Below are positions 8,113 to 31,699 of a DNA stretch of 44,356 bases, piece by piece. The stretch lies in contig CACEGG010000010.1 in the NCBI GenBank assembly GCA_902559035.1, positions 1 through 44,356 on the forward strand. Direction: 5' to 3'. This stretch comes from an uncultured Bacteroidota bacterium. Lineage in GTDB: Bacteria; Bacteroidota; Bacteroidia; Flavobacteriales; Flavobacteriaceae. A program made the position numbers and the translations under genes. The notes beneath the pieces were generated by a model that was not told where the DNA came from, did not search any database, and saw nothing but the letters and a program-made list of their open reading frames with translations. How positions within the stretch are numbered: the first letter of the stretch is position 1; the number at the start of each line of letters is the position of its first letter.

Positions 8113-8130
8113 TTAGTATTTTTATACTAA
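8113..8130. promoter_or_regulatory. Palindromic operator TTAGTATTTTTATACTAA
   Basis: An 18-bp inverted repeat, with half-sites TTAGTAT and ATACTAA. It is the exact reverse complement of the site at 31682-31699 in front of the TetR gene. It lies in the 104-base gap between a crotonase gene and the minus-strand reductase gene, 44 bases ahead of that start, so it probably controls the seven-gene operon from 8069 to 1488. Confidence 0.75.
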
Positions 8131-8142
8131 AATATAAAAAAA

Positions 8143-8160
8143 TACTATGCTTGCATAGTA
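8143..8160. repeat. Perfect inverted repeat TACTATGC-TT-GCATAGTA
   Basis: Two 8-bp arms separated by two bases, 12 bases from the operator at 8113-8130. There is no T-run typical of a strong terminator, although weak transcription termination of the minus-strand gene ending at 8174 is possible. The outer part TACTAT/ATAGTA recurs at 22580-22595. It may be a second protein-binding site or a variant operator. Function unknown. Confidence 0.5.
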
Positions 8161-8173
8161 AAAATAATATTAA

Positions 8174-8986
8174 TTATTTCCAGTTTGGATTTCTTTTTTC
8201 TTTGAAAGCAGCAACACCTTCCCTAGCATCATCGGAACTTAAGACTAGTTCTAACATTTGTGAAAGAAATTTATGATTTGATTCACTTGAGTTAACCTTA
8301 TCAAAAGCTTCTAAACCATATTGAATTGCTTTTGGGGAATTACTTGTTACTTCATCAAGCCATTTAGAAATAACTGAGTCTATATTGTCTGTAGATGCAA
8401 TCTCCGAAATCAATCCCCAGGATTGAGCAGTTTTAACATCCAAGTTATAGCCCCTAATACACCAGTCAATTACATTTCTAATAGACATAATTTTTGATAA
8501 GGATTCCATTACTTGCATTGGGAATATTCCTCTTTTTACTTCAGGAAGACCTAATTTAAGTCCATCAATGGAAACAACATAATTACAACCAGCTATTAAT
8601 AAAAAACCGCCAGCATAAACATCACCTTCAAGTTGACATATCTTTGGTTTGTATAGTTTATTGAATATCTCTGCAATTAAAATTTTTGAGTTTGGTAACG
8701 GGACTGTTGAATTATTATTTTCTAAATCACCTGAAATTGCTTTTAAATCTAATCCAGAACAAAAAACATCTCCATTGGCTTTTAGTAATAATGCTCTAAT
8801 TTCATTATTAAAAGAAGCATACTGAAAAGCAAATGCTAATTCGTTAATCATTTGAGGATGCAAGGCGTTTTTCTTATTAGAACGATTTAAAATTATTGTA
8901 ACAATATGATCTTTTTCATACCATTCTATGAAATCAAATTTGAATAATTTTATATTTTTTATGTCTCTTTCTTTAAAATAACTCAT
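8174..8986 (-). CDS. Enoyl-CoA hydratase/isomerase family protein (crotonase)
   Basis: A 270-residue crotonase. The ATG at 8986 was chosen because the longer frame starts with TTG at 9013 and would overlap the upstream gene by 20 bases; the ATG leaves a 7-base gap. Conserved blocks are NRSNKKNALHPQM, the oxyanion loop FCSGLDL, and QLEGDVYAGGFLL. LGLPEVKRGIFP supplies a Glu (E149) at the first catalytic position; the second is not obvious. It follows a carboxyltransferase gene. In leucine (liu) and acyclic terpene (atu) clusters a crotonase beside the carboxylase hydrates the methylglutaconyl-type product, so a similar role is plausible here, but the sequence alone does not prove it. Confidence 0.83.
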   Translation of the reverse strand: MSYFKERDIKNIKLFKFDFIEWYEKDHIVTIILNRSNKKNALHPQMINELAFAFQYASFNNEIRALLLKANGDVFCSGLDLKAISGDLENNNSTVPLPNSKILIAEIFNKLYKPKICQLEGDVYAGGFLLIAGCNYVVSIDGLKLGLPEVKRGIFPMQVMESLSKIMSIRNVIDWCIRGYNLDVKTAQSWGLISEIASTDNIDSVISKWLDEVTSNSPKAIQYGLEAFDKVNSSESNHKFLSQMLELVLSSDDAREGVAAFKEKRNPNWK

Positions 8987-8993
8987 AACAAAA

Positions 8994-10592
8994 TTACATT
9001 CTAAAAATTCCAAAAGAATCTGTTCCTTTAATATCAGAACTGTAAACTGCCGCTAACGCTAAGGATAAGTATTTTCTTGTTTCTGTTGGATCAATTACTC
9101 CATCATCCCATACCTCTGATGTAGTATGCCAAACGCTAGCTCTTTTATCAGCATCCTCAGCTAATACTTTTTTTTCTTTATTTAATTTATTTTCATCAAT
9201 TACTTTATTTGAAGATAAAGCAGCATTTCTTTTTATTATTTCCATAACTCCTGAAAGCTGATCTGCTCCCATAACACCAGATTTTACATTTGGATAAGAA
9301 AACAAAAACCTAGGTTCAAATGATCTGCCACACATTGCATAATTACCTGCACCATAAGAATTACCAACTTGCAAACTAATATGGGGAACTGTGCTTCCTG
9401 AAACTGCATGAATTAACTGAGCTCCTGCATTAATCATCCCACCTTGCTCATATCTTTTTCCAACCATAAATCCGGTTGTATTATGAATAAATAATAATGG
9501 AGTATTCGATTTATTTGCTAACTGAATAAAGTGAGTAGCTTTTCTAGCTGACTCAATAAAAATAACACCATTATTAGCAATAATACCAACTGGATATCCA
9601 TTAACTTTAGTCCAACAACAGAACATTGTTCTACCATAATTTTCTTTAAACTCAACAAATTCTGAATTATCGACAAACCTTTTTACTAAATCTTTAATAT
9701 CAAAAGGTTTTTTAAGATTTGATGGCACAATGCCTAAAATTTCTTTTGAATCAAATTTGGGAGCGGATGCACCCTTTTCAAAATTATTTTCTGTAGGATG
9801 TTTTATTTTTTTAATTAAGTTTTTAGCGATTGCTAAAGCCTCTTTCTCATCCTTTGCTAAAAAATCTGAGACACCAGATATACTACTATGCATTTGGGCT
9901 CCACCTAACTCTTCATCCGTAGAATCTTCATTAGTTGCCATTTTAACAAGTGGAGGACCAGCTAAAAATACCTTTGCAGCATTTTTTTGAAATATTGAAT
10001 AATCTGACATGCCCGGCACATAAGCTCCACCAGCTGTAGCACTTCCAAAAACTATGGAAATTGTTGGGATTCCCTCTTTGGATCTTCTTGACATTTCCAT
10101 AAAAAATTTACCATAATTATTGAAAACTCTGTCTTGATCAGGTAAGTTTGCTCCACCACTTTCAACTAAATTGATAGTTAATAATTTATTTTCCTTTGCG
10201 ATTTGGGATAGTCTTAAATTTTTTAAACTTGTAGCGTAATCAACAGCACCTGCTTTTCTTGTAGCTACATTTGCATTAATTAAACAAAGAATATTTGAAA
10301 CATAACCCAATACGACAACTGTTGTTCCTCCAGCACCAAAACCATTTTCATGTTTTAAACCAGCTAGTGGCATTAACTCTATATATGGTTTTTTCTTATC
10401 AAGTAGCAAATCAATTTTTTCCCTTGCAAGTAATTTTTTTCTAGCTCTTGTTCTTTTTATTTGCGCTGCATTCCCCTCTTGCTTTGATAACTTATAATAT
10501 GAATTAAGCTCCTTTAATAATTTTTTCATTGAAATTTCGTTTTCAATAAAACCAGAACTCAATACATCAACAGTTGGCTTTCTAACTTTCAT
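8994..10592 (-). CDS. Acyl-CoA carboxylase carboxyltransferase (beta) subunit, MccB/AtuC-like
   Basis: A 532-residue carboxyltransferase, the usual length for methylcrotonyl- or geranyl-CoA carboxylase beta subunits. Recognisable parts are KIDLLLD in the N-terminal domain, VESGGANLPDQ, FGSATAGGAYVPGMSDY (acyl-CoA site), GGAQMHSSISGVSDF, HNTTGFMVGKRYEQGG (biotin site) and GNSYGAGNYAMCGR. It moves CO2 from carboxybiotin to an enoyl-CoA or acyl-CoA. No biotin carboxylase/biotin-carrier alpha subunit is in the window, so the partner must be elsewhere, perhaps shared. Beta-methyl-branched chains need such a step. A degenerate operator lies 73 bases upstream of its start. Confidence 0.9.
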   Translation of the reverse strand: MKVRKPTVDVLSSGFIENEISMKKLLKELNSYYKLSKQEGNAAQIKRTRARKKLLAREKIDLLLDKKKPYIELMPLAGLKHENGFGAGGTTVVVLGYVSNILCLINANVATRKAGAVDYATSLKNLRLSQIAKENKLLTINLVESGGANLPDQDRVFNNYGKFFMEMSRRSKEGIPTISIVFGSATAGGAYVPGMSDYSIFQKNAAKVFLAGPPLVKMATNEDSTDEELGGAQMHSSISGVSDFLAKDEKEALAIAKNLIKKIKHPTENNFEKGASAPKFDSKEILGIVPSNLKKPFDIKDLVKRFVDNSEFVEFKENYGRTMFCCWTKVNGYPVGIIANNGVIFIESARKATHFIQLANKSNTPLLFIHNTTGFMVGKRYEQGGMINAGAQLIHAVSGSTVPHISLQVGNSYGAGNYAMCGRSFEPRFLFSYPNVKSGVMGADQLSGVMEIIKRNAALSSNKVIDENKLNKEKKVLAEDADKRASVWHTTSEVWDDGVIDPTETRKYLSLALAAVYSSDIKGTDSFGIFRM

Positions 10593-10664
10593 TTAACAAT
10601 CTTTTTATTTAGATGAATATATAAAGTTGATCAAATGTAAAATTAATGAAAAATATATTGCCCA

Positions 10665-10682
10665 TTAGTTTATGAATACCAA
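10665..10682. promoter_or_regulatory. Degenerate copy of the TTAGTAT-N4-ATACTAA operator
   Basis: TTAGTTTATGAATACCAA matches the perfect palindrome at 25381-25398 at 14 of 18 positions. It lies inside the 155-base divergent region between the carboxyltransferase (minus) and the GPH transporter (plus), where a shared control site would be expected. Weaker than the other copies. Confidence 0.4.
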
Positions 10683-10747
10683 AACAAATTTTAGCGATCT
10701 GAAAAAAATTATCATATAGTTATTTCTTAAGCATATATTTACAATAC

Positions 10748-12148: not shown

Positions 12149-12254
12149 ATCATTTTTATTTTAATTAATTTGAAAATATTGGACATTTAATTATGAATGT
12201 GTTTTAAAAAAAAACCTTATTTTCAATAAATCAATACAACAAAACAAAAATAAT

Positions 12255-13919: not shown

Positions 13920-13924
13920 GACAA

Positions 13925-17739: not shown

Positions 17740-17760
17740 ACAAAAAATAAATTTAAAAAA

Positions 17761-19297: not shown

Positions 19298-19315
19298 TTA
19301 GGATATTTATACTAA
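19298..19315. promoter_or_regulatory. Operator copy TTAGGATATTTATACTAA
   Basis: The right half TATACTAA matches the strong copies exactly; the left half has one change (G for T). It starts at the base after the monooxygenase stop and ends 11 bases before the ATG of the nitronate monooxygenase-family gene, so it probably controls that gene. Confidence 0.6.
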
Positions 19316-19326: not shown

Positions 19327-20304
19327 ATGAGTAAACCACAATTTATAAATGAATTAAGTATTCCCGCTGTTGCAGCTCCAATGTTTTTGATATCTGGACC
19401 TGAACTTGTAATAGAGTGTTGTAAAAATGGAATTGTTGGAACATTTCCTGCCTTGAATCAAAGAACTTCCGAGGGATTTGAAGAATGGTTAATTCAAATA
19501 AGAACTGAACTTGATGCATTTGAAAAAGAAACAGGAAAAAAAGCTGCTCCGTTCGGAGTTAACTTAATTGTTCATAACACTAATCCAAGAGTCCAAGCTG
19601 ATTTAATGTTGTGTGTAAAACATAAAGTTCCAATAATTATAACTTCACTAGGAGCAGTAAGTCAATTAGTTGATGCTGTACACTCATATGGAGGTCTAGT
19701 TTATCATGATGTAATCAAAAAAAGACACGCTGAGAAAGCAGCTGAAGCTGGAGTTGATGGATTAATCTTAGTTGCTGCAGGAGCTGGAGGACATGGTGGA
19801 ACACTTCATCCCATACCATTCATTGCTGAGGTTAAGAAATTTTTCAAAAAAACAATTTTACTTTCAGGATGCTTATCTAATGGAAGAGATATCGCCTCAG
19901 CAAAACAAATGGGAGCGGACTTGGCTTATATGGGTACTAGATTTATTAATACTAAAGAGAGTAAGGCTGATGATGCTTATAAAGAAATGATTATAAATTC
20001 AACTGCAGGTGATATTGTTTATACAGCGGCTGTTTCAGGCGTCAATGCCAATTTTTTAAGACAAAGTTTAGAATCTATGGGAATCACGGAAGACATGTGG
20101 GGAAATTCTAAAAAAATCAATTTTGGTGATGAGTTAGATGCAGCTAAAGCTGAAGCGAAAGCATGGAAAACTATTTGGTCTGCAGGTCAGGGAGTAACAA
20201 CAATTGATGACGACCCAAGTGTTAAAGAGCTAGTTGATAACTTAAAGAAAGAATTCATTTCATCTATTAAAGAGCAAAAGGATTTATTAGATACTTATAA
20301 CTAA
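19327..20304 (+). CDS. Nitronate monooxygenase-family FMN protein
   Basis: A 325-residue TIM-barrel protein of the 2-nitropropane dioxygenase/nitronate monooxygenase family. AAPMFLISGPELV near the N-terminus and GVNLIVHNTNPR are typical. AGAGGHGG contains the conserved active-site H156, and LLSGCLSNGRDIASAKQMGADLAYMGTRF forms the FMN phosphate site. Many members in lipid-degrading clusters do not use nitronates and are thought to be FMN oxidoreductases of acyl-CoA or enone compounds. It is preceded by an operator copy and ends in a 4-base tail-to-tail overlap with the acetoacetyl-CoA synthetase gene. Confidence 0.85.
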   Translation: MSKPQFINELSIPAVAAPMFLISGPELVIECCKNGIVGTFPALNQRTSEGFEEWLIQIRTELDAFEKETGKKAAPFGVNLIVHNTNPRVQADLMLCVKHKVPIIITSLGAVSQLVDAVHSYGGLVYHDVIKKRHAEKAAEAGVDGLILVAAGAGGHGGTLHPIPFIAEVKKFFKKTILLSGCLSNGRDIASAKQMGADLAYMGTRFINTKESKADDAYKEMIINSTAGDIVYTAAVSGVNANFLRQSLESMGITEDMWGNSKKINFGDELDAAKAEAKAWKTIWSAGQGVTTIDDDPSVKELVDNLKKEFISSIKEQKDLLDTYN

Positions 20305-22157
20305 TTTTTATAAAACTCTACAAACCAATCCAAGGCTGATGGATTTCTTAATGAATCTTTACTAACTACATCTTTTATATTTTCACCTGTTAATATTTTT
20401 TTAATAGGTACTTCGAGTTTTTTTCCACTTATTGTATAAGGAATCTCTGGGATTTTATAAATTACATCAGGAACATGCCTTGGAGAACATTTTTGTCTTA
20501 TTACAGACTTTAGCTTATTAAAATCAATTTCAATAAATGATTTTACAAATAGTATCAAACTGTTTTCTTTTTTATTATCTAAATGTATTATTAAACTATC
20601 CTCAACAAAATCTAAATCTGAAATAGCACTATATATTTCCGAAGTTCCGATTCTGACTCCAAATCTATTTAAAGTTGAATCAGAACGCCCATGAACAATA
20701 ATTCCTCCTTTTTTAGTTTCTGTTACCCAATCACCATGATTCCAAATTTGGTTATATTTTGAAAAATAACTATTGGCATACTTTTTATAACCTTTATCGT
20801 TCCATAAAAATACAGGCATTGAAATAAATGGTTTAGTTAGAACCAATTCACCCATTTCACCTTTTAATTGTTTACCATTATTATCCCAAACTTCAATCGA
20901 AGCACCTAGCATCTTACATTGAATTTCACCAGGAACAACATTCATTTCAGGATTTCCTCCAATAAATGCAGTACAAACGTCTGTTCCACCACTCAAAGAA
21001 ATTATATGAGTATCAGGAAAAAGTTTATTTAAACCAATATTAGTTTCTTTAAAAAGAGGTGAGCCAGTCGAACCTATACTTCTTAAATCAGAAAAATCAA
21101 TGGAATCTATGTCATTAGGAATATTTGTTAAAAGATTTTGAAAAAATACTGCTCCGTGACCGAAATGATTAATTTTTGCTTTTTGTGCAAATCGCCACAA
21201 AACTCCATTATCTGGAAAAATCGGGGATCCATTATATATACATAAAGAAGATCCAAGAAGAAGACTACTAAGGGAATAATTCCACATCATCCATCCTGTT
21301 GTAGAATACCAAAAATAAGAGTCTGATGTAGAAACATTTTGGTGAATTGACAAGGCTTTAAAATGTTCAAGTATCATACCTCCAGTTCTGTGAGTAATTG
21401 CTTTAGGTTTTCCTGTTGTTCCAGATGAAAATAATATCCAAATGGGATGATCAAAATCAACTGATTTGAAATTCAAATCAACTTTTTTTGTTTGATTTGA
21501 AAATTTAGATTTGGTATTTAAATCCAAAATCCCAGAAAGAGAATTAATTGAACTTTTAAGTTTTTTGACTTTTGAATTCAAACTAAAGTTTTTTCCATTA
21601 TAGGTATATTCAGAATGATAAAACAAAAATTTTGGTTGTATTTGATTAAATCTATCAAAAACAGAGTCGTATCCGAAATCAGGTGAGCATGAAGACCAAA
21701 TTGCTCCAATTGAATTAACTGCCAGAAAAGCTGATACAACTTCAGGTGTGTTTGAGCAATAAGCAACTACCCTATCGCCAATTTGAATGTTATTTTTAAT
21801 TAGTATTTTTTGAAACTCTAGAGTTTTTAACTTTAATGAATTCCAAGTTATTTCAAAATAGTCTCCATTTTCATCTTGATACTTTATAGCTGGAGTTTTT
21901 AGATTATCGTTTTTAAAAACATTTCTAGAATAACTAATTTTCGAATCAGTAAACCAGAGAGTTTCAATGAAGTTTTTATCAAATCTATATACGGAGCTTG
22001 GTGGTTTGTCAAATTCTATTTTAAAAAATTCAACAATTGACAACCAAAAATCTTCTATCTCAGTAATGCTCCATTTATGTAATTCATCGTATGAGGAAAA
22101 AATTATTTTATTGTTAGATTTTAAAAATTCTTTATACTTTGATAATATCGTTTTCAA
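20301..22157 (-). CDS. aacS: Acetoacetyl-CoA synthetase
   Basis: A 618-residue adenylate-forming enzyme. IWSSCSPDFGYDSVFDRF (153-170) is a segment typical of acetoacetyl-CoA synthetases; the P-loop is SSGTTGKPKA (244-253), WYSTTGWMMWNY lies in the acyl pocket, and SGGTDVCTAFIGG is the A5 region. It activates acetoacetate with ATP and CoA. The frame begins with TTG at 22157 directly behind an in-frame stop at 22161-22163, and the next Met is far inside, so TTG is the likely start. It follows a small membrane-protein gene by 15 bases. It would recover acetoacetate released by branched-chain or island catabolism. Confidence 0.87.
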   Translation of the reverse strand: MKTILSKYKEFLKSNNKIIFSSYDELHKWSITEIEDFWLSIVEFFKIEFDKPPSSVYRFDKNFIETLWFTDSKISYSRNVFKNDNLKTPAIKYQDENGDYFEITWNSLKLKTLEFQKILIKNNIQIGDRVVAYCSNTPEVVSAFLAVNSIGAIWSSCSPDFGYDSVFDRFNQIQPKFLFYHSEYTYNGKNFSLNSKVKKLKSSINSLSGILDLNTKSKFSNQTKKVDLNFKSVDFDHPIWILFSSGTTGKPKAITHRTGGMILEHFKALSIHQNVSTSDSYFWYSTTGWMMWNYSLSSLLLGSSLCIYNGSPIFPDNGVLWRFAQKAKINHFGHGAVFFQNLLTNIPNDIDSIDFSDLRSIGSTGSPLFKETNIGLNKLFPDTHIISLSGGTDVCTAFIGGNPEMNVVPGEIQCKMLGASIEVWDNNGKQLKGEMGELVLTKPFISMPVFLWNDKGYKKYANSYFSKYNQIWNHGDWVTETKKGGIIVHGRSDSTLNRFGVRIGTSEIYSAISDLDFVEDSLIIHLDNKKENSLILFVKSFIEIDFNKLKSVIRQKCSPRHVPDVIYKIPEIPYTISGKKLEVPIKKILTGENIKDVVSKDSLRNPSALDWFVEFYKN

Positions 22158-22172
22158 AACTTAAAATAGGCA

Positions 22173-22526
22173 CTATTGGTTTAATAAAAAGTAGACAGTA
22201 ATGACACAAAACAAGGCATGAAAAATTGCAATTTTTAAATCTCTGGTCTGTTTTAAAAAAAATGAAATAATGATTGCTAATGAAACTAAAAAATGAAATA
22301 CTGCAAATACAATTAAAAAAGGTTCATGTAAAACTGAATTTTCATAATTTGAAAAAATATATACTGCAAAAATACCAATACTACTGGCTGCAGCTCCATA
22401 CATCCTAGCTGTTGTCAAAAGAGCATTATTTGCTTTTTTATATGCAGCCATTAATCTCGGATTTATCAATAAAACTGATCCAACCAATAGTTCTAACAAG
22501 CCGACAACTAGTATAAATATTTTCAT
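22173..22526 (-). CDS. Small four-helix membrane protein, paralogue of a sulfatase N-terminal domain
   Basis: A 117-residue hydrophobic protein with four predicted helices. I do not recognise a named family. It aligns without gaps over about 77 residues to the N-terminus of the sulfatase at 27882, sharing MYGxAAxSxGxFAxY and LHxPFLxxFxxF. A stand-alone copy and a copy fused to a sulfatase in the same island suggest a membrane module tied to this pathway. It is divergent from the sterol desaturase-family gene, with two overlapping operator-like palindromes in the 69-base gap, and is followed by acetoacetyl-CoA synthetase. Confidence 0.75.
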   Translation of the reverse strand: MKIFILVVGLLELLVGSVLLINPRLMAAYKKANNALLTTARMYGAAASSIGIFAVYIFSNYENSVLHEPFLIVFAVFHFLVSLAIIISFFLKQTRDLKIAIFHALFCVITVYFLLNQ

Positions 22527-22567: not shown

Positions 22568-22596
22568 TTAGTATTAATTTACTATTTTTATAGTAA
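22568..22596. promoter_or_regulatory. Two overlapping operator-like palindromes in a divergent promoter region
   Basis: TTAGTATTAATTTACTAT (22568-22585) keeps the left half-site of the strong copies. TTACTATTTTTATAGTAA (22579-22596) is a perfect-armed palindrome differing from the site at 8113 only by a symmetric G/C exchange. The second touches the A of the ATG at 22596, so bound protein would block the start region of the plus-strand operon and could also affect the minus-strand gene starting at 22526. Confidence 0.55.
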
Positions 22597-23477
22597 TGGA
22601 TCAAGAAAGCATAAGTAAGTTAGTTCCTGTTATAGTACTTTTAGTTTTAGGTTCTTTAGAAGCCATAGGAGGACTATATTTTCATGACAAACGTTCAAAA
22701 AATGATATTACTATAGAGCTTGTTTGCTTAACTGTACTTCCAACACTTATTCAACCAGCCATTCTAGCGCTAGTATTATTTTCAATGGATTCTTGGTTTT
22801 TAATTTACGAGGATTATTTTATAAATTCTTATTTCTTATGGCATGTTTTAGCATTCCTAATACTAGACGATCTAACTCAATATCTTTGGCATAGATTTTC
22901 ACATGAAAATCCTTTTATGTGGAAATTACATAGACCTCATCATGTTGTTGAAGAAATGGGAGTTCTTGTAACCTACAGAAATGCATTTATGTATTATGCA
23001 TTTATGCCTGGACTATGGTTTACTGGTATTCTTATATTTCTAGGTATGACTGAAGTTTATTTGTATTACCTGCCAATAAAAATGACTGTCATAATTGCTG
23101 CTCATAGCGAAACTAAATGGGATCAATATCTATACAAATATAAATTTCTACACCCAATTGCATGGGTTATTGAAAGAACTATTTCTACACCAAGTACTCA
23201 CTATGCTCATCATGGCTTGACCTCTGAAGATGGGGTTTCAAATCCAAATGGGAATTATGGAAACCTCCTTTTTTTCTGGGATATATTATTTGGTACTGCA
23301 AAAATTACTAGAAAATATCCAACAAAATTTGGAGCTTGGAATAAAATGAAAGAGCCTTGGTATGTTCAATTAATGTTCCCGATTTTGAAATCTAAAGATT
23401 CTAAAAGTGAACTCAGTTCTATAAAGACAAATATGGACTATGATCCATCAAAAGATTATAAGGATTTTGATAGTTAA
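22596..23477 (+). CDS. Sterol desaturase / fatty acid hydroxylase-superfamily membrane protein
   Basis: A 293-residue di-iron membrane enzyme. Four to five hydrophobic segments surround the histidine clusters HRFSH (99-103), HRPHH (112-116), H170 and HYAHH (202-206), the expected set for the fatty acid hydroxylase superfamily. It uses O2 to hydroxylate or desaturate a lipid, sterol or isoprenoid. It heads a four-gene operon with an SDR and the DUF1214/DUF1254 pair, immediately behind the palindromes at 22568-22596. An oxidation followed by SDR dehydrogenation would yield the ketone needed by a Baeyer-Villiger enzyme; this link is inferred. Confidence 0.88.
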   Translation: MDQESISKLVPVIVLLVLGSLEAIGGLYFHDKRSKNDITIELVCLTVLPTLIQPAILALVLFSMDSWFLIYEDYFINSYFLWHVLAFLILDDLTQYLWHRFSHENPFMWKLHRPHHVVEEMGVLVTYRNAFMYYAFMPGLWFTGILIFLGMTEVYLYYLPIKMTVIIAAHSETKWDQYLYKYKFLHPIAWVIERTISTPSTHYAHHGLTSEDGVSNPNGNYGNLLFFWDILFGTAKITRKYPTKFGAWNKMKEPWYVQLMFPILKSKDSKSELSSIKTNMDYDPSKDYKDFDS

Positions 23478-23483
23478 ACTTTA

Positions 23484-24305
23484 ATGAAAAACTTAAATAA
23501 TAAAGTTGTTGTAATTACTGGCGCGGGTTCAGGAATTGGCAGATCTCTTGCTATTAAAATGCATGAAAGTGGAGCACTACTGGCACTTAACGATTTCAAT
23601 GATAAAACTTTAGAAGAGACAGTAAATATAATTGATAATGTGAATAAAACATATTGTGAAGTTTTTGATGTATCCAAAAAAAAAGACTTTGACCAATTTG
23701 CAAAAAATGTTATCAAACATTTTGGTAAAGTAGACGTTATAATAAATAATGCAGGAATAACAATTGGCAGCTTTTCTGCTATTGAAACAACAATAGAAGA
23801 CTATGAAAAAGTTGTAGGAATTAACATGTGGGGTATGATTTATGGTACACTTGCTTTTTTACCAGAACTTAGAAAACAAAAAGAATCAAGTGTTGTAAAT
23901 ATTTCAAGTGTCTGGGGACTTTTAGGCTCTCCCTATCAATCGGCCTACAGTGTATCTAAATTTGGAATTAGAGGTTTCAGTGAAGCCTTAGCAGCTGAGG
24001 AATTGTGTAATAACTCAGGAGTTGTAGTTACAAGTATTCATCCTGGTGGTGTTAAAACAAATATTGTTAGAAACATTGAGGGTAAAAAATTAAGTGAAGA
24101 GCAACTAAAAAAATTGGATGTTCACTTTCCAACCACGGCAAATCAAACTGCCGATAAAATTATTAATGCTATTAAGAAAAAAAGAACTAAAGTCATTATA
24201 GGTAAAGATGCTAAATTCATGTATCGATTAACTAGATTTTCTCAAAGATTAACTATGAGTTTTATTGTAAATTGGGCTAAAAAAATGATGAAAATTGAAA
24301 AATAA
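23484..24305 (+). CDS. Short-chain dehydrogenase/reductase
   Basis: A 273-residue classical SDR. GAGSGIGRS (13-21) binds the dinucleotide, NNAG is at 88-91, and the catalytic residues are S142, Y155 and K159 in YSVSKFG. SIHPGGVKTNIVRN follows the active site, and the C-terminal extension FMYRLTRFSQRL is common in SDRs found next to lipid-oxidising genes. It starts 6 bases after the hydroxylase-family gene and its end overlaps the DUF1214 gene by 11 bases. Likely role: oxidation of a hydroxyl made by the upstream enzyme, or reduction of the corresponding ketone. Confidence 0.86.
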   Translation: MKNLNNKVVVITGAGSGIGRSLAIKMHESGALLALNDFNDKTLEETVNIIDNVNKTYCEVFDVSKKKDFDQFAKNVIKHFGKVDVIINNAGITIGSFSAIETTIEDYEKVVGINMWGMIYGTLAFLPELRKQKESSVVNISSVWGLLGSPYQSAYSVSKFGIRGFSEALAAEELCNNSGVVVTSIHPGGVKTNIVRNIEGKKLSEEQLKKLDVHFPTTANQTADKIINAIKKKRTKVIIGKDAKFMYRLTRFSQRLTMSFIVNWAKKMMKIEK

Positions 24306-24855
24306 AGTAATAATCCCAATACTAATTCTACTATCAATAATTATTGGTGGCTATACAGCTATTTCAAAGATTAACTCCTCAACACAAAACAATGAATTTT
24401 CTATAAAAAACGGCAACTGGACTGTAAATCCAAACATGGATTTAAAGAATAGTTACCAAAGAGCTTATATTTCAAGAATTGGGGTTTTTGCTTTGGATGA
24501 GAAAGAAGCACTGTATTTCTTATCAAGCAAGGACAATGATGGAGACCCATTAACATCAGATTTTGATTATCAAATTATTGGTACTCCTCCAAAGGGAAGA
24601 TATTGGAGTTATACATTATACGGTGAAGATTATTTTTTAGTAAAAAATGTTGCCAATATTTACACGATAAATAAAGAAAATCTTAATATAGACAAACCAA
24701 TAATAGTATCATCATCTAAAAAAGACATTAATTGGTTACCCTCAGGTACTGAAACGAAGTTTCATATTATTCTAAGGGTTTATAATCCATATGAAAGTGT
24801 TTATAAAAACTTAGAATCATTAGACTTACCAATAATTAAAAAAATAGAAAAATGA
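24295..24855 (+). CDS. Membrane-anchored DUF1214 protein
   Basis: A 186-residue protein with an N-terminal hydrophobic anchor (about 6-21). NGNWTVNPN, YQRAYISRIGVFALDEKEALYF, YWSYTLYGEDYFLV and the C-terminal WLPSG with LRVYNPYESV match the DUF1214 fold. The start is TTG at 24295: an in-frame stop lies at 24289-24291 and no ATG occurs before the conserved region, giving an 11-base overlap with the SDR. In many bacteria DUF1254 and DUF1214 are fused in one longer protein; here they are two genes, 1214 first. Biochemical function unknown to me. Confidence 0.78.
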   Translation: MKNKVIIPILILLSIIIGGYTAISKINSSTQNNEFSIKNGNWTVNPNMDLKNSYQRAYISRIGVFALDEKEALYFLSSKDNDGDPLTSDFDYQIIGTPPKGRYWSYTLYGEDYFLVKNVANIYTINKENLNIDKPIIVSSSKKDINWLPSGTETKFHIILRVYNPYESVYKNLESLDLPIIKKIEK

Positions 24856-25367
24856 AAAAGATATTTTTTTACTTATGGATCTTACTTATAATGAGTGTTT
24901 GTTCTTATAATTTAACTATACATTACATTCCAAATATTGTTTATACTGTATTTCATTATAAAATTGAAAAAAATCAAAATATAAAGGATAATGAAATAAA
25001 ACATTTTGATATTCCAAGTGACCAGTCTAGAAATGTTGTAATGCCCAATCCTGATTTTTTATATTCTACTATTTTTTACGACTTAAGTGAAAAAGATTTG
25101 AATATAAATGCAAATATGCCTGACTCTACGTATTGGTCTGTTTCGTTCTACAAACCAAATACAATAAACTGGTTTGTAAAAAACGATCAAGAATTTGAAA
25201 CTAATAATCTAGATCTTACATTAACTTTTAATGATTCTAAATCACAGGGCGTTATAAAATCGCCTGTGAAGAAAGGATTTATGATCATTAGAATATTAGT
25301 TGAAAAAAAGGATCAAAATTCAATCGATTATTATAAATCTCTTCAAAAAAGCATTACAATAAATTAG
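24852..25367 (+). CDS. Membrane-anchored DUF1254 protein
   Basis: A 171-residue partner of the preceding gene, overlapping it by the 4-base ATGA. Residues 5-20 form an anchor or signal peptide. The core RNVVMPNPDFLYSTIFYDLSE followed by YWSVSFYKPNTINWF is the N-terminal (DUF1254) pattern of larger DUF1254-DUF1214 proteins. The two products probably assemble into one unit on the outer face of the inner membrane. Its role in the island is unknown. The next operator lies 13 bases after its stop. Confidence 0.72.
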   Translation: MKKIFFYLWILLIMSVCSYNLTIHYIPNIVYTVFHYKIEKNQNIKDNEIKHFDIPSDQSRNVVMPNPDFLYSTIFYDLSEKDLNINANMPDSTYWSVSFYKPNTINWFVKNDQEFETNNLDLTLTFNDSKSQGVIKSPVKKGFMIIRILVEKKDQNSIDYYKSLQKSITIN

Positions 25368-25380
25368 TTTTTTTATTAAA

Positions 25381-25398
25381 TTAGTATTTAAATACTAA
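25381..25398. promoter_or_regulatory. Perfect palindromic operator TTAGTATTTAAATACTAA
   Basis: A perfect 18-bp palindrome and the best example of the island's repeated motif. It ends 6 bases before the ATG of the haloalkane dehalogenase-like gene. Bound repressor would cover the translation-start region of the five-gene operon 25405-31012. Confidence 0.75.
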
Positions 25399-25404
25399 TT
25401 ATTC

Positions 25405-26562
25405 ATGAAAAAGTTAAAGCGTAAAATTCAAAAATTGATTGTTAGTCTAATGGGTTCTCCAATTAAAATTGGACCAAATTTTAGGAATAGACAAGTCAAA
25501 ACTATAGATCCGCTTCCAAAGGAAGTTTTCTGGGATACTAGTGTTAAAATTTATAAAACAAAAAGCGGAATTGAATATGTGAAAACACCTGAAGAATATT
25601 TTTTAAATCTTCCAGGTTTTAATTTTAACGAAAATTATTGTGATATAAATGGACTTAAAATGCATTATATTGATGCTGGTCCTAGCGATGGAAAAATTCT
25701 TTTATTACTTCATGGACAACCGGTTTGGTCCTATTTATACCGAACTATGATTCACAAATTAGTTGCAGAAGGATACAGATGTATCGCTCCAGATTTAATA
25801 GGAATGGGAAAATCAGACAAACCAATTTCAATTAAGTACCATATTTACGACACTCATTGTAATAATGTTTTATCATTTATTAAAAAATTAAAACTTAAAA
25901 AAATTACTCTTTTTTGTCAGGATTGGGGAAGTTTAATAGGTCTTCGAATTGCTGGTGAAAATTCAAATCTTTTCTCCGGTATAATTGCTGCTAATGCTGA
26001 ACTTCCAAACTTTACTGAAGAATCAAATCCATTATATATACCAGAGCCGCTAACAATAAATACTAAAATTAAAAGTTTTAAAAAAGCAATGGCATACCAT
26101 ATGTTAAATAATAATGGATTTAATATGGATATCTTTCAAGTGTGGGTTACTTATTGTATTACGACTCCATTTGTTCATGTTAGTGAAATTATGGGACTAA
26201 GTTTATCTAGAAACTTTAAAAAAGATCAAAAAATACTTGATGCCTATGCTGCTCCATTTCCATCATTTATATATATGGCCGGTCCTAGAACCCTTCCTTC
26301 AATGAATGCTGGGATTACTGGTCAAACTTTAAAAGCAATTGATGGATTAAAAAAATTTAAAAAACCTTTCTTATCTTTAATTGGGTTACAAGACAAGCTT
26401 CTAGGAACACCAAGAATTCAGAACAGATTTATTAAAATGGTTCCAGGAGCTAAAGGACAGGATCACGAACAGTTCAAAGAAGCTAACCATTTTATTCAAG
26501 AGGACATTGGAGAAATTATGGCTGATAGAATGCATAAATTTATTGTTAAAAATAAAATATAA
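25405..26562 (+). CDS. Haloalkane dehalogenase-like alpha/beta hydrolase
   Basis: A 385-residue alpha/beta hydrolase with an N-terminal extension of about 80 residues. The oxyanion region HGQPVWSYLYR (103-113), APDLIGMGKSDKP (128-140) and the nucleophile elbow QDWGS (172-176) match haloalkane dehalogenases: the nucleophile is Asp173, followed by Trp174 where a halide-stabilising Trp sits. The base is H362 in EANHFIQED. An Asp nucleophile excludes ordinary serine esterase chemistry; haloalkane dehalogenase or epoxide hydrolase-like action fits. HGQ replaces HGE/HGN of characterised dehalogenases, so halide binding needs testing. First gene of an operon, 7 bases after an operator. Confidence 0.83.
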   Translation: MKKLKRKIQKLIVSLMGSPIKIGPNFRNRQVKTIDPLPKEVFWDTSVKIYKTKSGIEYVKTPEEYFLNLPGFNFNENYCDINGLKMHYIDAGPSDGKILLLLHGQPVWSYLYRTMIHKLVAEGYRCIAPDLIGMGKSDKPISIKYHIYDTHCNNVLSFIKKLKLKKITLFCQDWGSLIGLRIAGENSNLFSGIIAANAELPNFTEESNPLYIPEPLTINTKIKSFKKAMAYHMLNNNGFNMDIFQVWVTYCITTPFVHVSEIMGLSLSRNFKKDQKILDAYAAPFPSFIYMAGPRTLPSMNAGITGQTLKAIDGLKKFKKPFLSLIGLQDKLLGTPRIQNRFIKMVPGAKGQDHEQFKEANHFIQEDIGEIMADRMHKFIVKNKI

Positions 26563-27416
26563 TGAAGAAAAAAATTTTAAAAATTATTGGTTTATTTTCA
26601 ATATTTATTTTGTTGTTTTTTATTTCACTTCCCGCTCTGCTGAATAACGCAGGGCTACATCCAAAATTTGATAGTAAAAAATATAATTTCACAAATAAAA
26701 GAGCAGTAATTATATCAACTAGTCACAGTACTCTAAACAAGCCTGGAGAAAAAACTGGCAAATTAACAGGAGTCTTTGCATCCGAGCTTACTGTCCCTTA
26801 TTATGAATTTACAGATTCTGGATTTGAGGTAGATATTGCAAGTATTAAAGGAGGTGAAATTCCTATTGATCCCGAATCGTTTTTTTATGTTGTAAAAACA
26901 AGCTCAGACGATAGGTATCTTGAGGATCCAATTCTAAAAGAAAAAGTAAAAAATTCTATTAAAATAGATGAACTTGAAATTGATAATTACGATTTAGTAT
27001 TCATTGCAGGTGGTTGGGGTGCTGCGTATGATTTGGGTTATTCGGAAATATTAGGAAAAAAAATAAGTCAAACTTATTATAACCCAAACTCTATAATCGG
27101 TGGAGTCTGTCATGGTGTTCTTGGATTTATAAACGCTAAAGATTCTCTTGGAAATCTAATTATAAAAAACAGAAGAATGACAGGTGTTACTAATAAGCAA
27201 ATTAAAGAACTTGGAATTGATTTCACACCTCAACATCCTGAAGAAGAGTTGATAAAAGCTGGAGCTATTTTCGAAAGTAAAACAGCTATTAGAGATGTAT
27301 TTGCTAATTTAACTATTGTAGACGATGAATCTAAATTTGTAACTGGACAGAATCAAAATGCAGGACATGAAACTCCTCAGAAAATGATGGAGATTTTAAA
27401 AACAAATGACTTTTAA
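26562..27416 (+). CDS. Membrane-anchored DJ-1/PfpI family protein
   Basis: A 284-residue protein with an N-terminal hydrophobic segment (about 7-27) that would place the domain outside the cytoplasm or on the membrane. The DJ-1/PfpI core has ELTVPYYEF (E75), DLVFIAGGWGAAYDLG and the nucleophile elbow GGVCHGVLGF with C183. Members with this Glu-Cys pair include Hsp31-like glyoxalase III enzymes and isonitrile hydratases. The start overlaps the previous stop by 1 base (TAATG), and its end overlaps the next gene by 11. It may handle reactive aldehydes or modified carbonyls; the substrate is unknown. Confidence 0.82.
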   Translation: MKKKILKIIGLFSIFILLFFISLPALLNNAGLHPKFDSKKYNFTNKRAVIISTSHSTLNKPGEKTGKLTGVFASELTVPYYEFTDSGFEVDIASIKGGEIPIDPESFFYVVKTSSDDRYLEDPILKEKVKNSIKIDELEIDNYDLVFIAGGWGAAYDLGYSEILGKKISQTYYNPNSIIGGVCHGVLGFINAKDSLGNLIIKNRRMTGVTNKQIKELGIDFTPQHPEEELIKAGAIFESKTAIRDVFANLTIVDDESKFVTGQNQNAGHETPQKMMEILKTNDF

Positions 27417-27882
27417 TTTTAAAAACATACTACCTAAAAGTGCTGACAATAACTTTAAAGGTCACAAGTTAGTATTGTGGGGTTTTATTATGTTTTTAGG
27501 TCTTATGACTTGGAGGGCAATCATTCATATGTTATTTGAACAGTACGGATATCAAAATATTGCAAGTTTTTTAGAAATTTCAGCAGATCCTGATCCAATG
27601 CCAATAATCTACAGATTTTTTTCTTTATGGGGATTTGCTCAACTAATTTTCTGTCTAGTTTGTTGGGTTATAGTTTTTAAATACAGATCATTAATTCCAT
27701 TAATGTGTTTATTTTGGATATTTGAATGGGGATTCAGAGTTTTTGGCTATCCTTTAATTCGGGAAGAAATTGCTATAGAAGGCATATATACTAGCAGTGT
27801 AACGCCTGGTGTTTCCTATGCTTTTGTTCCAGCATTAATTGCAATTATTTTATTTGGACTTTCTATATTAGACAATAAATAA
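27406..27882 (+). CDS. Integral membrane protein of unknown function
   Basis: A 158-residue protein with about four hydrophobic segments (near 27-45, 75-95, 100-118 and 133-153). I do not recognise a family. Acidic and aromatic loop residues (SADPDPMP, FEWGFRVFGYP) lie between the helices. It overlaps the DJ-1 gene by 11 bases and the sulfatase gene by 1 base, so it is very likely made together with both. It may form a complex with the membrane domain of the sulfatase that follows. Confidence 0.65.
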   Translation: MTFNFKNILPKSADNNFKGHKLVLWGFIMFLGLMTWRAIIHMLFEQYGYQNIASFLEISADPDPMPIIYRFFSLWGFAQLIFCLVCWVIVFKYRSLIPLMCLFWIFEWGFRVFGYPLIREEIAIEGIYTSSVTPGVSYAFVPALIAIILFGLSILDNK

Positions 27883-30203
27883 TGAGAAAATTTTTTCTTT
27901 TAACGGCAATAATAGAAATTCTAGCAGGTCTTGCTTTATTTTTTGCAACAGATAAAATACCCGATTTAATTAATGCTAATCCACTAACCATAGGTTTCGC
28001 TAAAATGTATGGAATAGCTGCATTTTCTCTAGGACTTTTTGCGTTATACTCTTGGAAATTTTTTAATATAAAAAAACTACACATTCCCTTCTTGACTATT
28101 TTTTCAATTTTTAATATTGGAATTGCTTTTGCCGTTATTCAGTCCAACTTAAATTTTGGGTTTGAAAATCCCGCACCGGGGTATTTTCACTTAATCCTAG
28201 GATTAATCGGAATTTATTTTATATTAAAAATAAAGAAATTAAATAATAGCTTTAGCAAGAACTTTTTTTACTTTTTTCTACTTATTATTACAGGCATTTT
28301 AACTTCAAACAATATTCTGTTTGCATTATCCAGAATTTTTAGTGATGAATCAATTTTAAGAATAATAATTTTATTTTTAATTTTTGTTTTTCCGGTACTG
28401 TACTATATAAATACATTTGCTGAAAATAAATTTAATTCAAAACTAAAAAGAATACTATTTATCACTTTGATCGGATCTGTTTTGGCTTGGATTATTCAGC
28501 TAATAGAAATTCATCTATATCATTTTGAAATTAATGTAGTGTCTCCTATTGGTTTATTTGAAGATGAATTCATCAGAACTATCAAATTTATATTTCCTAC
28601 GCTAATAATAGCTGAGATTATTTGGTTGTATTTAAAAAACAGAACCAAAGTTTTTTATAGCGGAATTACTTTAATTATTGCTTATTTATTTATATCATTT
28701 TATAATTCTTTTATTTTTATAGACTCTAAACCAGCTATATACCCCGATACAACATTAAAGAACAATGATGAACTACCCAACGTAATTTTAATAGTGGCAG
28801 ACGACTTAGGTTTCAACGATATATCAGCAAATGGAAATAAATTAATCGAAACTTCAAATATTGACCAAATAGCTAAAAATGGAGTAAATTTTACTAGGGC
28901 TTATGCAACAGCTTCAGTATGTGCGCCCTCAAGAGCTGCATTTTTAACAGGGAACTATCAGCATAGAAATGGCTTTGAGTTTTTACCTGATTTATTTAAT
29001 TATAGTCCAAGAGTTAGAAAAGCAGATTTTAAAAGATTTGGACATCAAAATAATTTTAAACAGTGGTATGAAAAGGATGTTCCTATTAATCAACGTGGAT
29101 TGGATCCTTATGTGAACACAATAGGTGATTATTTAAAGAAAATGGGTTACCAAACATCAGTTATTGGTAAATGGCACATGGGAACACATCCAAAATTCAG
29201 TCCTATAAATTATGGATTTGATTATCATTATGGGATTACTGGCGCAGGATCTCTTTACGCACCTTTAAATCAAGAAAATATTGTTGAATCAAAACAAACT
29301 TGGGATTTTGCAGATTTTATTACTTGGCAAGCAACAAATTATTACACTTCGGAAAATGGAAAAAATTCAACTCCTAAAAATTCAGAATATCTAACTGATG
29401 TTTTTACTAAAAAAGCTGTTAATTACATTAAAGAAAATAAAGACAAACCTTTTTTTCTTCATCTTTCACACATGGCCCCACACGGACCTTTTCAAGCACA
29501 AAAAAAATATTATCAAATGTTCTCTCACATTGAGGATCATAACAAAAGAGTTTATTACGCTATGATTAAAAATTTAGACGATAGTGTAGGAGAAATTAAA
29601 AAAACTCTTGAAAAAGAAGGGATTTTGGATAACACTCTAATTATTTTTATTAGTGATAATGGTGGAGCTACTTACACTAGAGCTACTAATAACTCACCAT
29701 ATTTTGGTGGAAAAATGTCAAATTTTGAAGGAGGAACTGTTGTGCCAATGATGATGCAATGGAACAAAAAAATAAAGCCTCAAACAAATTATACTCAAAT
29801 GGTTAGTTTGCTGGATATTGTTCCAACAATTTTAGATGCAGTAAAATCACCCTCTCTTAGCAATAAATATGATGGTGTATCATTAATTCCATATTTAGAT
29901 TCTAATAATAAACCTCACAAAGAATTATTTTGGAAAACAGGGTATGTAAAGTCAATTGTTTCTGAAAACTTTAAATTACACATTAATGAAAAAGAAAATT
30001 TCAAATTTTTAATAAATTTAGAAGATGATCTATCTGAAAAAAATAATTTAATATCAAAATATCCAGAAAAAGCAGAAGAACTAACTTTAAAATGGAATAA
30101 TTGGAATAAAAATTTACAAGATCCTAAATGGGATTCTAACGCAGATGTATCTATTCCGGTTGATAATTCTGTGAATTCTAAAAGATATTTTTTCCCTTGG
30201 TAA
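27882..30203 (+). CDS. Sulfatase fused to a polytopic membrane domain
   Basis: A 773-residue protein. Residues 1-120 form a four-helix module that matches the separate 117-residue protein at 22173; residues 125-280 add roughly four more helices; residues 299-773 are a type I sulfatase. The metal aspartates D307/D308 are in VADDLGFND, the formylglycine site is C347 in VCAPSR, followed by AAFLTG, and GKWHMG and ISDNGGATYTRA are further conserved blocks. The Cys needs conversion to formylglycine by an enzyme not present here. Most flavobacterial sulfatases are exported soluble proteins or lipoproteins, so this multi-helix fusion is unusual and suggests a membrane-embedded amphipathic sulfate ester as substrate. 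Confidence 0.88.
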   Translation: MRKFFLLTAIIEILAGLALFFATDKIPDLINANPLTIGFAKMYGIAAFSLGLFALYSWKFFNIKKLHIPFLTIFSIFNIGIAFAVIQSNLNFGFENPAPGYFHLILGLIGIYFILKIKKLNNSFSKNFFYFFLLIITGILTSNNILFALSRIFSDESILRIIILFLIFVFPVLYYINTFAENKFNSKLKRILFITLIGSVLAWIIQLIEIHLYHFEINVVSPIGLFEDEFIRTIKFIFPTLIIAEIIWLYLKNRTKVFYSGITLIIAYLFISFYNSFIFIDSKPAIYPDTTLKNNDELPNVILIVADDLGFNDISANGNKLIETSNIDQIAKNGVNFTRAYATASVCAPSRAAFLTGNYQHRNGFEFLPDLFNYSPRVRKADFKRFGHQNNFKQWYEKDVPINQRGLDPYVNTIGDYLKKMGYQTSVIGKWHMGTHPKFSPINYGFDYHYGITGAGSLYAPLNQENIVESKQTWDFADFITWQATNYYTSENGKNSTPKNSEYLTDVFTKKAVNYIKENKDKPFFLHLSHMAPHGPFQAQKKYYQMFSHIEDHNKRVYYAMIKNLDDSVGEIKKTLEKEGILDNTLIIFISDNGGATYTRATNNSPYFGGKMSNFEGGTVVPMMMQWNKKIKPQTNYTQMVSLLDIVPTILDAVKSPSLSNKYDGVSLIPYLDSNNKPHKELFWKTGYVKSIVSENFKLHINEKENFKFLINLEDDLSEKNNLISKYPEKAEELTLKWNNWNKNLQDPKWDSNADVSIPVDNSVNSKRYFFPW

Positions 30204-30208
30204 AAATT

Positions 30209-31012
30209 ATGGAAAATGATAATTTAATAATAGAATCAGTATCAAACGGACCATTATTTGGACAAACTTTTAATGTTGAAATGTTAAATAGTTTATCCTT
30301 AATAAAAATAAAATTTCTTTTGTCAAGAATTCCATTAATTCCATATTCTTTAAAGAAACAACTATTTTCTCTTTCTAAAAAGGAGGTAAATAGTAACGGA
30401 TTAATTTTACATGGAGGAGGTCCAATTTACAGTAATGGAACAATTTCGGATAATGAATGCTGTAATCCCTTAGAATTAGATCCTAAAGATCCAAATTTTA
30501 TAGAAAAAACTTCTGGAGGTTTAAAGTTAATAAACGATAATCCCCTAGTTCAAACTGCAAAATATCCTAAAAAGGTGATTGGAAATTTTACAGCAATGAA
30601 TAGATTTTTTACTGACATTTCAAGTGAATTTATAGCCAGTTCAATCAATAGAAAATTAATCCCAACAAACTCAAAAGATCAAGTAATTCAAGCCTATATT
30701 AAAAGTGCCAAAGAATGTGAAAAATTAACAGATAAAATTATACTTGAGCAAACTGCAACCTTTTCTTTTAGATCAAAAAACTGTGGAGATGTAAACGAAC
30801 CTGCAAAGGATACAATAACAGGAATGATGTTATTTGTTTGGGGTGTTAAGGGACAAGTATTTAATGGAACAGTAATTGGAGGAACTGGAAAATTTAGCGA
30901 AATAAGTGGAGAATTCACAAGAGAAAGATTATTAGCACCCAATTTTTCAGGGGCTGAAACTTTTAGAATTACATTTCCAACAAAATTAAAACCTGATTAT
31001 TATCCTAATTAA
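30209..31012 (+). CDS. Unrecognised protein with a C-terminal glycine-rich beta pattern
   Basis: A 267-residue protein. The ATG at 30209 was preferred over the TTG at 30197, leaving 5 bases after the sulfatase stop. There is no signal peptide. The C-terminal third has alternating strands ending in VFNGTVIGGTGKFSEISGEFT, loosely like the eight-stranded barrels of dirigent or allene oxide cyclase proteins; this resemblance is weak and only suggestive. The N-terminal part includes LILHGGGPIYSNGTISD. Last gene of the operon that starts at 25405; its end overlaps the convergent TetR gene by 4 bases. A binding or isomerase-like role for the substrate is possible but not shown. Confidence 0.6.
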   Translation: MENDNLIIESVSNGPLFGQTFNVEMLNSLSLIKIKFLLSRIPLIPYSLKKQLFSLSKKEVNSNGLILHGGGPIYSNGTISDNECCNPLELDPKDPNFIEKTSGGLKLINDNPLVQTAKYPKKVIGNFTAMNRFFTDISSEFIASSINRKLIPTNSKDQVIQAYIKSAKECEKLTDKIILEQTATFSFRSKNCGDVNEPAKDTITGMMLFVWGVKGQVFNGTVIGGTGKFSEISGEFTRERLLAPNFSGAETFRITFPTKLKPDYYPN

Positions 31013-31656
31013 AGATTTTTAAAATCTTCATCTATTTTTTTAGAAATCTCTTTCTTTTTTTTGTAGTATCTATCTACACCTTTTTTAGTCAAATATGGGT
31101 AGAAATGACCCATTATTTCATCAAATATCTTGCGATATTTGTTTTTAGAATCATCTAAAACCTCCCATGTTGTCAGGGATGAAGAAACGATAGCCCAATT
31201 ATTTTTAGCAAATGTTTTATACTGACCATCAAATGCTTCTTTTTTCATATAACCATTTTTGATACTAATATTAATGTATTCGATTGAAAATTTTTCATTT
31301 AATTTATTTACATCCTTAAAGACAGATTTAGCGTTTGGAACTAAATTTATAATTTCTAAAATATCTCTAAAAAAAAATCTATAGTTAAATAAAAAAACAA
31401 GATTATTTCTTAAAATATTATATAAAGACATTTGTTTTAAGGATTGTCGTTGAGTGGCTTCAATCTCAACTAATTTTCTGATCATATAATAAATTATATA
31501 ATCCATTAAGTCTTTTTTAGTTTTAAAGTGATAAGTTAAGTTTCCTGGACTGATATTATTATGTTCAGCAATATCCTGAAGTCTAACATTAGCTAATCCC
31601 TTTTTATTGAATAATAATATTGATGATTCTACTATTTTAATTCTTGTACTACTCAC
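31009..31656 (-). CDS. TetR-family transcriptional regulator (candidate island repressor)
   Basis: A 215-residue regulator. The N-terminal helix-turn-helix is LQDIAEHNNISPGNLTYHFKTKKDL (about 26-50), the classical TetR pattern. The C-terminal domain, with FLFNYRFFFRDI, resembles the ligand-binding domain common in Bacteroidota TetR proteins. The start is GTG at 31656: an in-frame stop (TAA) lies two codons before it and the next Met is behind the DNA-binding region. The gene is divergent from the nine-gene operon at 31722, and the 18-bp palindrome at 31682-31699 lies 25 bases before its start, which indicates autoregulation. Only regulator in the window. Confidence 0.88.
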   Translation of the reverse strand: MSSTRIKIVESSILLFNKKGLANVRLQDIAEHNNISPGNLTYHFKTKKDLMDYIIYYMIRKLVEIEATQRQSLKQMSLYNILRNNLVFLFNYRFFFRDILEIINLVPNAKSVFKDVNKLNEKFSIEYINISIKNGYMKKEAFDGQYKTFAKNNWAIVSSSLTTWEVLDDSKNKYRKIFDEIMGHFYPYLTKKGVDRYYKKKKEISKKIDEDFKNL

Positions 31657-31681
31657 TATTTAAATTTATAATCTTGTGTAA

Positions 31682-31699
31682 TTAGTATAAAAATACTAA
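31682..31699. promoter_or_regulatory. TetR operator TTAGTATAAAAATACTAA in divergent promoter
   Basis: An 18-bp inverted repeat centred in the 65-base gap between the TetR gene (minus, start 31656) and the operon starting at 31722. It is the exact reverse complement of the site at 8113-8130. TetR proteins commonly bind such sites beside their own gene, so this copy ties the motif to the regulator. Confidence 0.8.

Follow-up and report, generated by a model that had tools for sequence, protein, structure and literature searches.

A repeated palindrome in an acyl-CoA catabolism island of uncultured Flavobacteriaceae as the probable operator of a TetR-family regulator

The window, by which we mean the whole stretch of 44,356 nucleotides analysed here (contig CACEGG010000010.1 of assembly GCA_902559035.1, from an uncultured member of the Flavobacteriaceae), is contig C10 of a host genome of 1,578,379 bases (completeness, 88.6%), and carries an island of acyl-CoA catabolism genes, a gene for a TetR-family regulator, and an 18-bp palindrome recurring between genes. 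In a Pfam scan of 42 open reading frames (ORFs) of the window (7 further ORFs overlapping these were left out, and 4 of the 42 matched no family), the island was found to contain four acyl-CoA dehydrogenases, two enoyl-CoA hydratases, a thiolase, a MaoC dehydratase, four short-chain dehydrogenases, two nitronate monooxygenase (NMO)-type flavoproteins, two AMP-binding ligases, a carboxyltransferase, two sulfatases, a TonB receptor, and a major facilitator superfamily (MFS) transporter. An earlier note on this DNA had proposed that the palindrome and the TetR protein define a regulon spanning the island; its statement that the TetR gene is the only regulator in the window is borne out among the 42 scanned ORFs. 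The regulator and the palindrome copies that we retain as candidate operators are as follows.

31009–31656, minus strand: TetR-family regulator of 215 residues with a GTG start (PF00440 and PF13972)
31682–31699: perfect copy in the gap that separates the TetR gene from the divergent 31722 operon, at a distance of 25 bases to the TetR start and of 22 to the ATG at 31722
25381–25398: perfect copy before the 25405 operon, 6 bases from the ATG
8113–8130: perfect copy before the minus-strand operon 8069–1488, 43 bases from the ATG
19298–19315: copy with 1 mismatch before the NMO-like gene at 19327
22568–22585: degenerate copy with 2 mismatches, retaining the core TAGTA-N6-TACTA, between the DUF4345-like and fatty-acid-hydroxylase genes

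The full palindrome is TTAGTAT-N4-ATACTAA, with the above core. It occurs three times in perfect form in the whole host genome, each time in the window (8113, 25381, and 31682), and twice with one mismatch, at 19298 and at C7:27140; the latter lies within an ORF and was set aside as a regulon member. When up to three mismatches to the full 18-mer were allowed, the window gave 4 matches against a shuffle mean of 0.36, a number reached by 0 of 100 shuffles. One of these 4, at 21511 and with three mismatches, is inside a gene and was taken as chance; a match to the core at 37851–37866, inside the acyl-CoA dehydrogenase gene ACAD4, is probably chance as well. The copies enumerated in the earlier note are all intergenic, as it had said; the operon starts before which it placed them are predictions from the spacing and direction of the genes. 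Three of these copies are perfect, that at 19298 has a single mismatch, and that at 22568 holds in part, through its core. Two others drop out. The copy proposed at 22579–22596 overlaps the first base of a start codon, and its two exact arms are unique to the window in a 12-genome alignment, while the weak copy at 10665–10682 is confined to the window and G004 at 2 mismatches; G001 shows it with 3, and the other 8 TetR-positive genomes with the carboxyltransferase start with at least 4. The exact reverse complementarity of the copies at 31682 and 8113, though true, is of little weight, since palindromic arms read alike on both strands and the two copies can differ only in their spacer (AAAA/TTTT). 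The 19298 site starts one base past the stop of a co-directional upstream gene, and the 25381 site lies within a co-directional gap of 37 bases.

The protein encoded at 31009–31656 belongs to the TetR family by its PF00440 (TetR_N helix-turn-helix) score of 34.1 bits (cut-off, 24), and also matches PF13972 (40.2 bits; cut-off, 25). Orthologs with 67–98% identity were found in 11 relatives, so that 12 of the 22 genomes of the genus, the window's own included, are TetR-positive; the N-terminal, DNA-binding part (about residues 2–64) is nearly invariant among the orthologs, and the C-terminal part is more variable. The predicted structure model is nearly all-helical with a mean predicted local distance difference test score of 60.2 and a predicted TM-score of 0.56; given this low confidence, the fold search was used solely as support for family membership, and its best matches are TetR proteins. 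The named TetR equivalogs (AcrR, RefZ, MtrR, BetI, PsrA, RutR, and others) were rejected as identities, with a best NCBIfam score of 39.3 against a cut-off of 271, and all 12 listed families below cut-off.

The 22 genomes (completeness, 51–93%) were searched with the motif and, as control, with the reversed motif. The motif has 38 perfect sites, spread over 13 genomes; the control has 6, each in a different genome. Each of the 12 TetR-positive genomes has at least one (36 sites together); among the 10 genomes in which TetR was not found, nine have none, and G001 has two. The island contig of G001 starts inside the sulfatase gene preceding TetR, and thus breaks before the TetR position. The lack of the gene was read directly in G003, G007, G013, G015, and G018, where the fetched stretch spans the TetR place; in G001, G012, G016, and G017 the island contig ends before it, and in G021 the island gene searched gave no match. 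Absence from that place is therefore seen for 5 of the 10 genomes, and in the rest TetR is merely not found. Perfect copies are not equally common elsewhere, as island gaps account for 34 of the 38 in the genus and the window for all those of the host genome; conservation of the motif along with the TetR gene, which the earlier note had likewise put forward as a check, is borne out by perfect sites in 12/12 TetR-positive genomes and in 1/10 of the others, the one with the contig break.

Looser matching gives a different picture, and is what would be expected if the motif had arisen by chance in AT-rich gaps or belonged to a promoter element. With up to two mismatches, the host genome has 33 forward matches and 53 for the reversed control; with up to one, the genus totals are 75 and 78, respectively, divided into 67 forward and 44 control matches in TetR-positive genomes and 8 and 34 in the others. 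As the loose matches are not above control, the evidence was restricted to perfect sites and to weaker ones that occupy a homologous gap. The excess of perfect sites (38 against 6), and the fact that the position and presence of the sites track the TetR gene, with matches at one mismatch or fewer in 0/257 upstream regions of other island genes in TetR-positive genomes, make a chance origin extremely improbable.

The individual sites differ in their conservation. In the 31682 gap, the site is found in 12/12 TetR-positive genomes (9 perfect and 3 with 1 mismatch). The site in the 25381 gap, before the gene abhyd2, is perfect in 10/11 TetR-positive genomes having the gap and in G001, and has 2 mismatches in the TetR-less G007. 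The 8113 site (ADH gap) is present with up to 1 mismatch in 9/11 TetR-positive genomes having the gap and, among 9 without a found TetR, in G001 alone. The 19298 site (NMO1 gap) is present with up to 2 mismatches in 7/9 TetR-positive genomes having the gap; without a found TetR, it has 2 mismatches in G001, 3 in G007, and 4–5 in four others. In the 22568 gap, the core is retained in 7/10 TetR-positive genomes having the gap, the window included, and is absent in G001. Counts were also made over upstream regions (150 bases upstream and 12 downstream of the start codons), with shuffles of single letters. At one mismatch or fewer, a site was found in 34/35 upstream regions of TetR, o279, and abhyd2 in TetR-positive genomes; 12 gaps, each shared by two genes, account for 24 of these regions. 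Four other targets (ADH_N2, o246, NMO1, and FAhydrox) were counted likewise, and the corresponding numbers are 18/41 in TetR-positive genomes, 1/3 in G001, 0/4 in G007, and 0/18 in the other TetR-less genomes, rising to 28/41, 2/3, 1/4, and 1/18, respectively, at up to two mismatches. The 257 control regions above come from 30 other island genes, and 2 of them, both before TonB genes, have a site with 2 mismatches; DUF4345, CarboxTrans, MFS2, DUF1254, and ECH2, which share a gap with or adjoin a listed site, were left out of this control set. The rows of all these counts are related sequences and not independent. The sites at 8113, 19298, 25381, and 31682 are supported as candidate TetR operators, and that at 22568 is a likely one with weaker support, through its core only.

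A letter count over 48 sites (all matches with one mismatch or fewer in the fetched stretches of the TetR-positive genomes and G001, some of them outside gaps and including C7:27140) showed both arms nearly invariant and the spacer A/T-rich but free. The sites of the six main gaps end from −5 to 43 bases before the start codon, and the two TonB sites at 56 and 104. Being so near to start codons, the palindromes could be transcribed and might act as RNA, in a 5′ leader hairpin or a terminator. Among 55 gap sites, however, 33 arm pairs are changed, of which 0 are compensated, 31 are broken, and 2 become G-T, a pattern that fits protein binding and not RNA pairing. It is the letters, and not pairing alone, that are conserved, and the site in the divergent gap would need to serve both strands; we therefore give a function as RNA hardly any credence.

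The history of the regulator was read from a tree of six island proteins in 21 genomes (G021 was left out, and G001 and G010 were placed from 20% of the columns). TetR is present in a well-supported group of 15 genomes and absent in the pair G007/G016 inside it, and the tree needs three TetR state changes, or two with G001 uncounted. Its root is a midpoint root, for drawing only, and therefore gain and loss are a reading of it. On the unbroken contig of G007, which has no N, homology to o271 is followed after 25 bases by homology to o279 with no TetR gene between, while much of the surrounding module (abhyd2, both sulfatases, o271, and o279) is retained. In comparison with G008 of the same three-genome group, the sites of G007 have gone from 1 to 5 mismatches at o279, from 0 to 2 at abhyd2, from 0 to 4 at o246, and from 2 to 3 at NMO1, so that 4 of 5 sites are lost or eroded and the FAhydrox core is kept; the ADH gap is siteless in both genomes. 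Outside the group of 15, the island is shorter in G003, G013, G015, and G018, where abhyd2, TetR, and the sulfatases are missing (G018 has only a distant 25% match, located elsewhere) and the targets have no site at one mismatch or fewer. It is therefore probable that the regulator was added to an already existing island along with the sulfatase module.

The same comparison bears on the possibility that the palindrome serves a different regulator, encoded elsewhere, with the TetR gene a mere passenger of the module. TetR and the sulfatase/hydrolase module do mostly travel together, and G001 has perfect sites with no TetR ortholog found. The contig of G001, however, ends before the TetR position, the TetR divergent gap contains the site in 12/12 genomes, and G007, in which much of the module persists and no TetR is seen, has 4/5 sites decayed relative to G008. 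Judged from the presence pattern of TetR and of the sites, a passenger role is very unlikely.

We judge it highly probable (about 0.86) that the TetR-family protein at 31009–31656 has the palindrome as its operator; it would repress its own gene and about five catabolic units. Several observations weigh against this assignment, in addition to the loose genus totals given above. The abhyd2 site is absent in the TetR-positive G020, the ADH site in G008 and G011, and the NMO1 site, with up to 2 mismatches allowed, in G011 and G019; the o246 site is missing in the window, G002, G004, G005, and G014. Conversely, the TetR-less G007 retains the FAhydrox core, and the TetR-less G013 has a match with 2 mismatches before o246. 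The choice of the four further targets was made when their sites were already known. The link between motif and regulator is backed by only about two independent changes of TetR, and G007 is only 68% complete, so that TetR could lie elsewhere in its genome. Finally, the promoter reading of the divergent gap given below is a consensus match only.

With the operator so assigned, the regulon would cover about 27 of the 42 island genes (seven, one, four, five, TetR itself, and nine), with two more possible if the 22568 site acts both ways. The island-wide regulon of the earlier note is thus supported overall, smaller than proposed there by the sites at 10665 and 22579, and in some relatives reaching a DUF4442 gene outside the island. 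The putative target units, whose limits are throughout predicted from the spacing and direction of the genes, with contents by Pfam unless stated otherwise, are as follows.

1488–8069, minus strand: seven genes, for an ADH_N_2 reductase, thiolase, short-chain dehydrogenase, MaoC dehydratase, enoyl-CoA hydratase, and two acyl-CoA dehydrogenases
19327–20304, plus strand: a single gene for an NMO/FabK-like flavoprotein (PF03060), after the 19298 site
22596–25367, plus strand: four genes, for a fatty-acid hydroxylase, short-chain dehydrogenase, DUF1214, and DUF1254
25405–31012, plus strand: five genes, for an alpha/beta hydrolase, DJ-1/PfpI, an unknown protein, a sulfatase, and an unknown protein
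31722–40874, plus strand: nine genes, for an unknown protein (279 residues), acyl-CoA dehydrogenase, NMO, sulfatase, short-chain dehydrogenase, acyl-CoA dehydrogenase, short-chain dehydrogenase, APH-type kinase, and histidine phosphatase
20301–22526, minus strand: possible extra unit, divergent from the 22568 site and sharing its gap, with a DUF4345-like gene and an acetoacetate-CoA ligase (PRK03584)

The gene order of the 1488–8069 operon is kept in most mapped relatives. Another inverted repeat (TACTATGC-TT-GCATAGTA) lies near its candidate operator, at 8143–8160 in the gap separating ECH2 from ADH_N2, and is kept in most relatives, both TetR-positive and TetR-less, and is followed on the minus strand by a T run; it looks like the terminator of the upstream operon, and was not listed by the terminator scan. 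The acetoacetate-CoA ligase scores 743.2 bits with PRK03584 (cut-off, 639), and the DUF4345-like gene 20.4 bits with DUF4345, under the cut-off of 26.5.

By analogy with KstR2, the TetR-type repressor of an actinomycete regulon, and with the family in general, the TetR protein is most likely an autoregulated local repressor. A TetR dimer would bind the operator with one half-site per recognition helix. As no retained site is more than about 45 bases from its start codon, the dimer would there lie over the core promoter, or over the beginning of the transcribed region, and prevent transcription, a geometry that favours repression. A pathway compound, probably a CoA thioester, may then bind the C-terminal domain and release the protein. 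On one side of the 31682 operator is a TTG at 31674, which we take to be a −33 element; on the other, its right end is overlapped by a match to TAnnTTT at 31697. In Flavobacterium psychrophilum, the −7 box is TAnnTTTG, the median 5′ untranslated region 24 bp, and the share of leaderless messages 5.5% (PMC9723704). A variant of this scheme, whose odds overlap with those of the operator assignment itself, is that TetR has an activating role at the sites that it binds, alone or in addition to repression. G007, with no TetR found, still has most of the operons, as the variant would allow. However, a protein bound at or just before a start codon normally blocks polymerase. KstR2, with a similar small regulon, is described as a repressor (PMC3068626); an activating role is on these grounds unlikely.

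Of the four perfect sites outside island gaps, three (in G002, G005, and G014) share one gap, flanked on one side by a DUF4442 gene and on the other by a thioredoxin-reductase-like gene, so named from inspection of its sequence by eye. The DUF4442 gene (L071:10012–10476 in G005, and homologous loci), which is outside the island, has a site with up to 2 mismatches near its start in 6/10 TetR-positive genomes having the gene (3 perfect, 1 with one mismatch, and 2 with two), and in 0/6 genomes without TetR; in the window's own genome no match to the gene was obtained at the threshold used. The fourth site, G011 C7:359519 (L088), precedes the gene of a secreted protein of 1416 residues with a PA domain and a Por secretion tail. 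Separately, two relatives have a second TetR gene (L083:5039–5662 in G009 and L086:9121–9729 in G011), 32–34% identical and with PF13972, which adjoins the carboxyltransferase/MFS gap and has a different palindrome before it (AATACAAAT...ATTTGTATT, seen by eye); it is possibly a second local regulator.

As to what the island degrades, the closest solved relatives of both sulfatases are carrageenan S1 sulfatases, the NMO proteins match FabK and nitronate monooxygenases, and two acyl-CoA dehydrogenases match PimC/PimD below cut-off; none of these matches fixes the substrate of the pathway. A polysaccharide utilisation locus was rejected, with neither a glycoside hydrolase nor SusD in the Pfam scans of the 42 ORFs; the TonB receptor was likewise rejected as SusC (58.7 bits, far under the cut-off of 368.25). 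A tentative proposal, possible but rather doubtful, is that TetR is the switch of an undescribed pathway of small-genome, uncultured marine Flavobacteriaceae that would desulfate a sulfated, lipid-like compound (e.g., a sterol or terpenoid sulfate) and then degrade it via acyl-CoA steps; the regulator would have been recruited with the sulfatase module onto an older acyl-CoA island, and operators would have arisen before resident operons and decayed on loss of the regulator. If this is true, nature has here recorded how a regulon is assembled and taken apart. Apart from this proposal, the analysis supplies a candidate operator and regulator, both open to testing, of a large catabolic island in probably marine bacteria known from metagenome assemblies, and what appears to be a case of a regulator and its operators appearing and decaying together within one genus.

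No description of such a regulon for this genus was present in the literature searched, and the term TetR does not occur in the main text of PMC6794258, which deals with the clade MAG-121220-bin8 of North Sea blooms (genomes under 2 Mb). The kind of system is nevertheless ordinary, as small local TetR regulons for catabolism are well described. The nearest solved relatives of the protein, which also match by the fold of the low-confidence model, are Maqu_3571 from Marinobacter (3nnr; E, 4.3e-14) and Sama_0099 from Shewanella (3rh2; E, 1.2e-10), and the entries name them merely as TetR-family regulators. The divergent TetR regulators of mycobacteria, as outlined in PMC4482099, resemble the present system in the short divergent gap, the palindrome, the neighbouring target genes, and their discovery by comparative genomics, and differ in that the operator here recurs, at about five places within 23 kb, and is traced with its regulator across a genus. 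Closest in organisation is the KstR2 regulon of actinomycetes, 15 genes linked to cholesterol catabolism by the account in PMC3068626, in which an autoregulated repressor of the TetR type uses one palindrome in three promoter regions, with a divergent operon pair having a common site. As sequence, the island has the corresponding features: an operator in the regulator's own gap and before neighbouring operons, conserved with the regulator across species. The operator of KstR2, in contrast, is AnCAAGnnCTTGnT (14 bp) in the same account, its protein is only distantly alike (phmmer E, 2e-5 over residues 3–155; 16% identity by Foldseek on the low-confidence model), the present island has two sulfatases, and the phylum differs. 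Orthology was rejected because the operator sequence differs and six other entries outscore KstR2. Altogether, the system would work like a local regulon of the KstR2 type, without being KstR2, and appears from its sequence to be a new TetR regulon.

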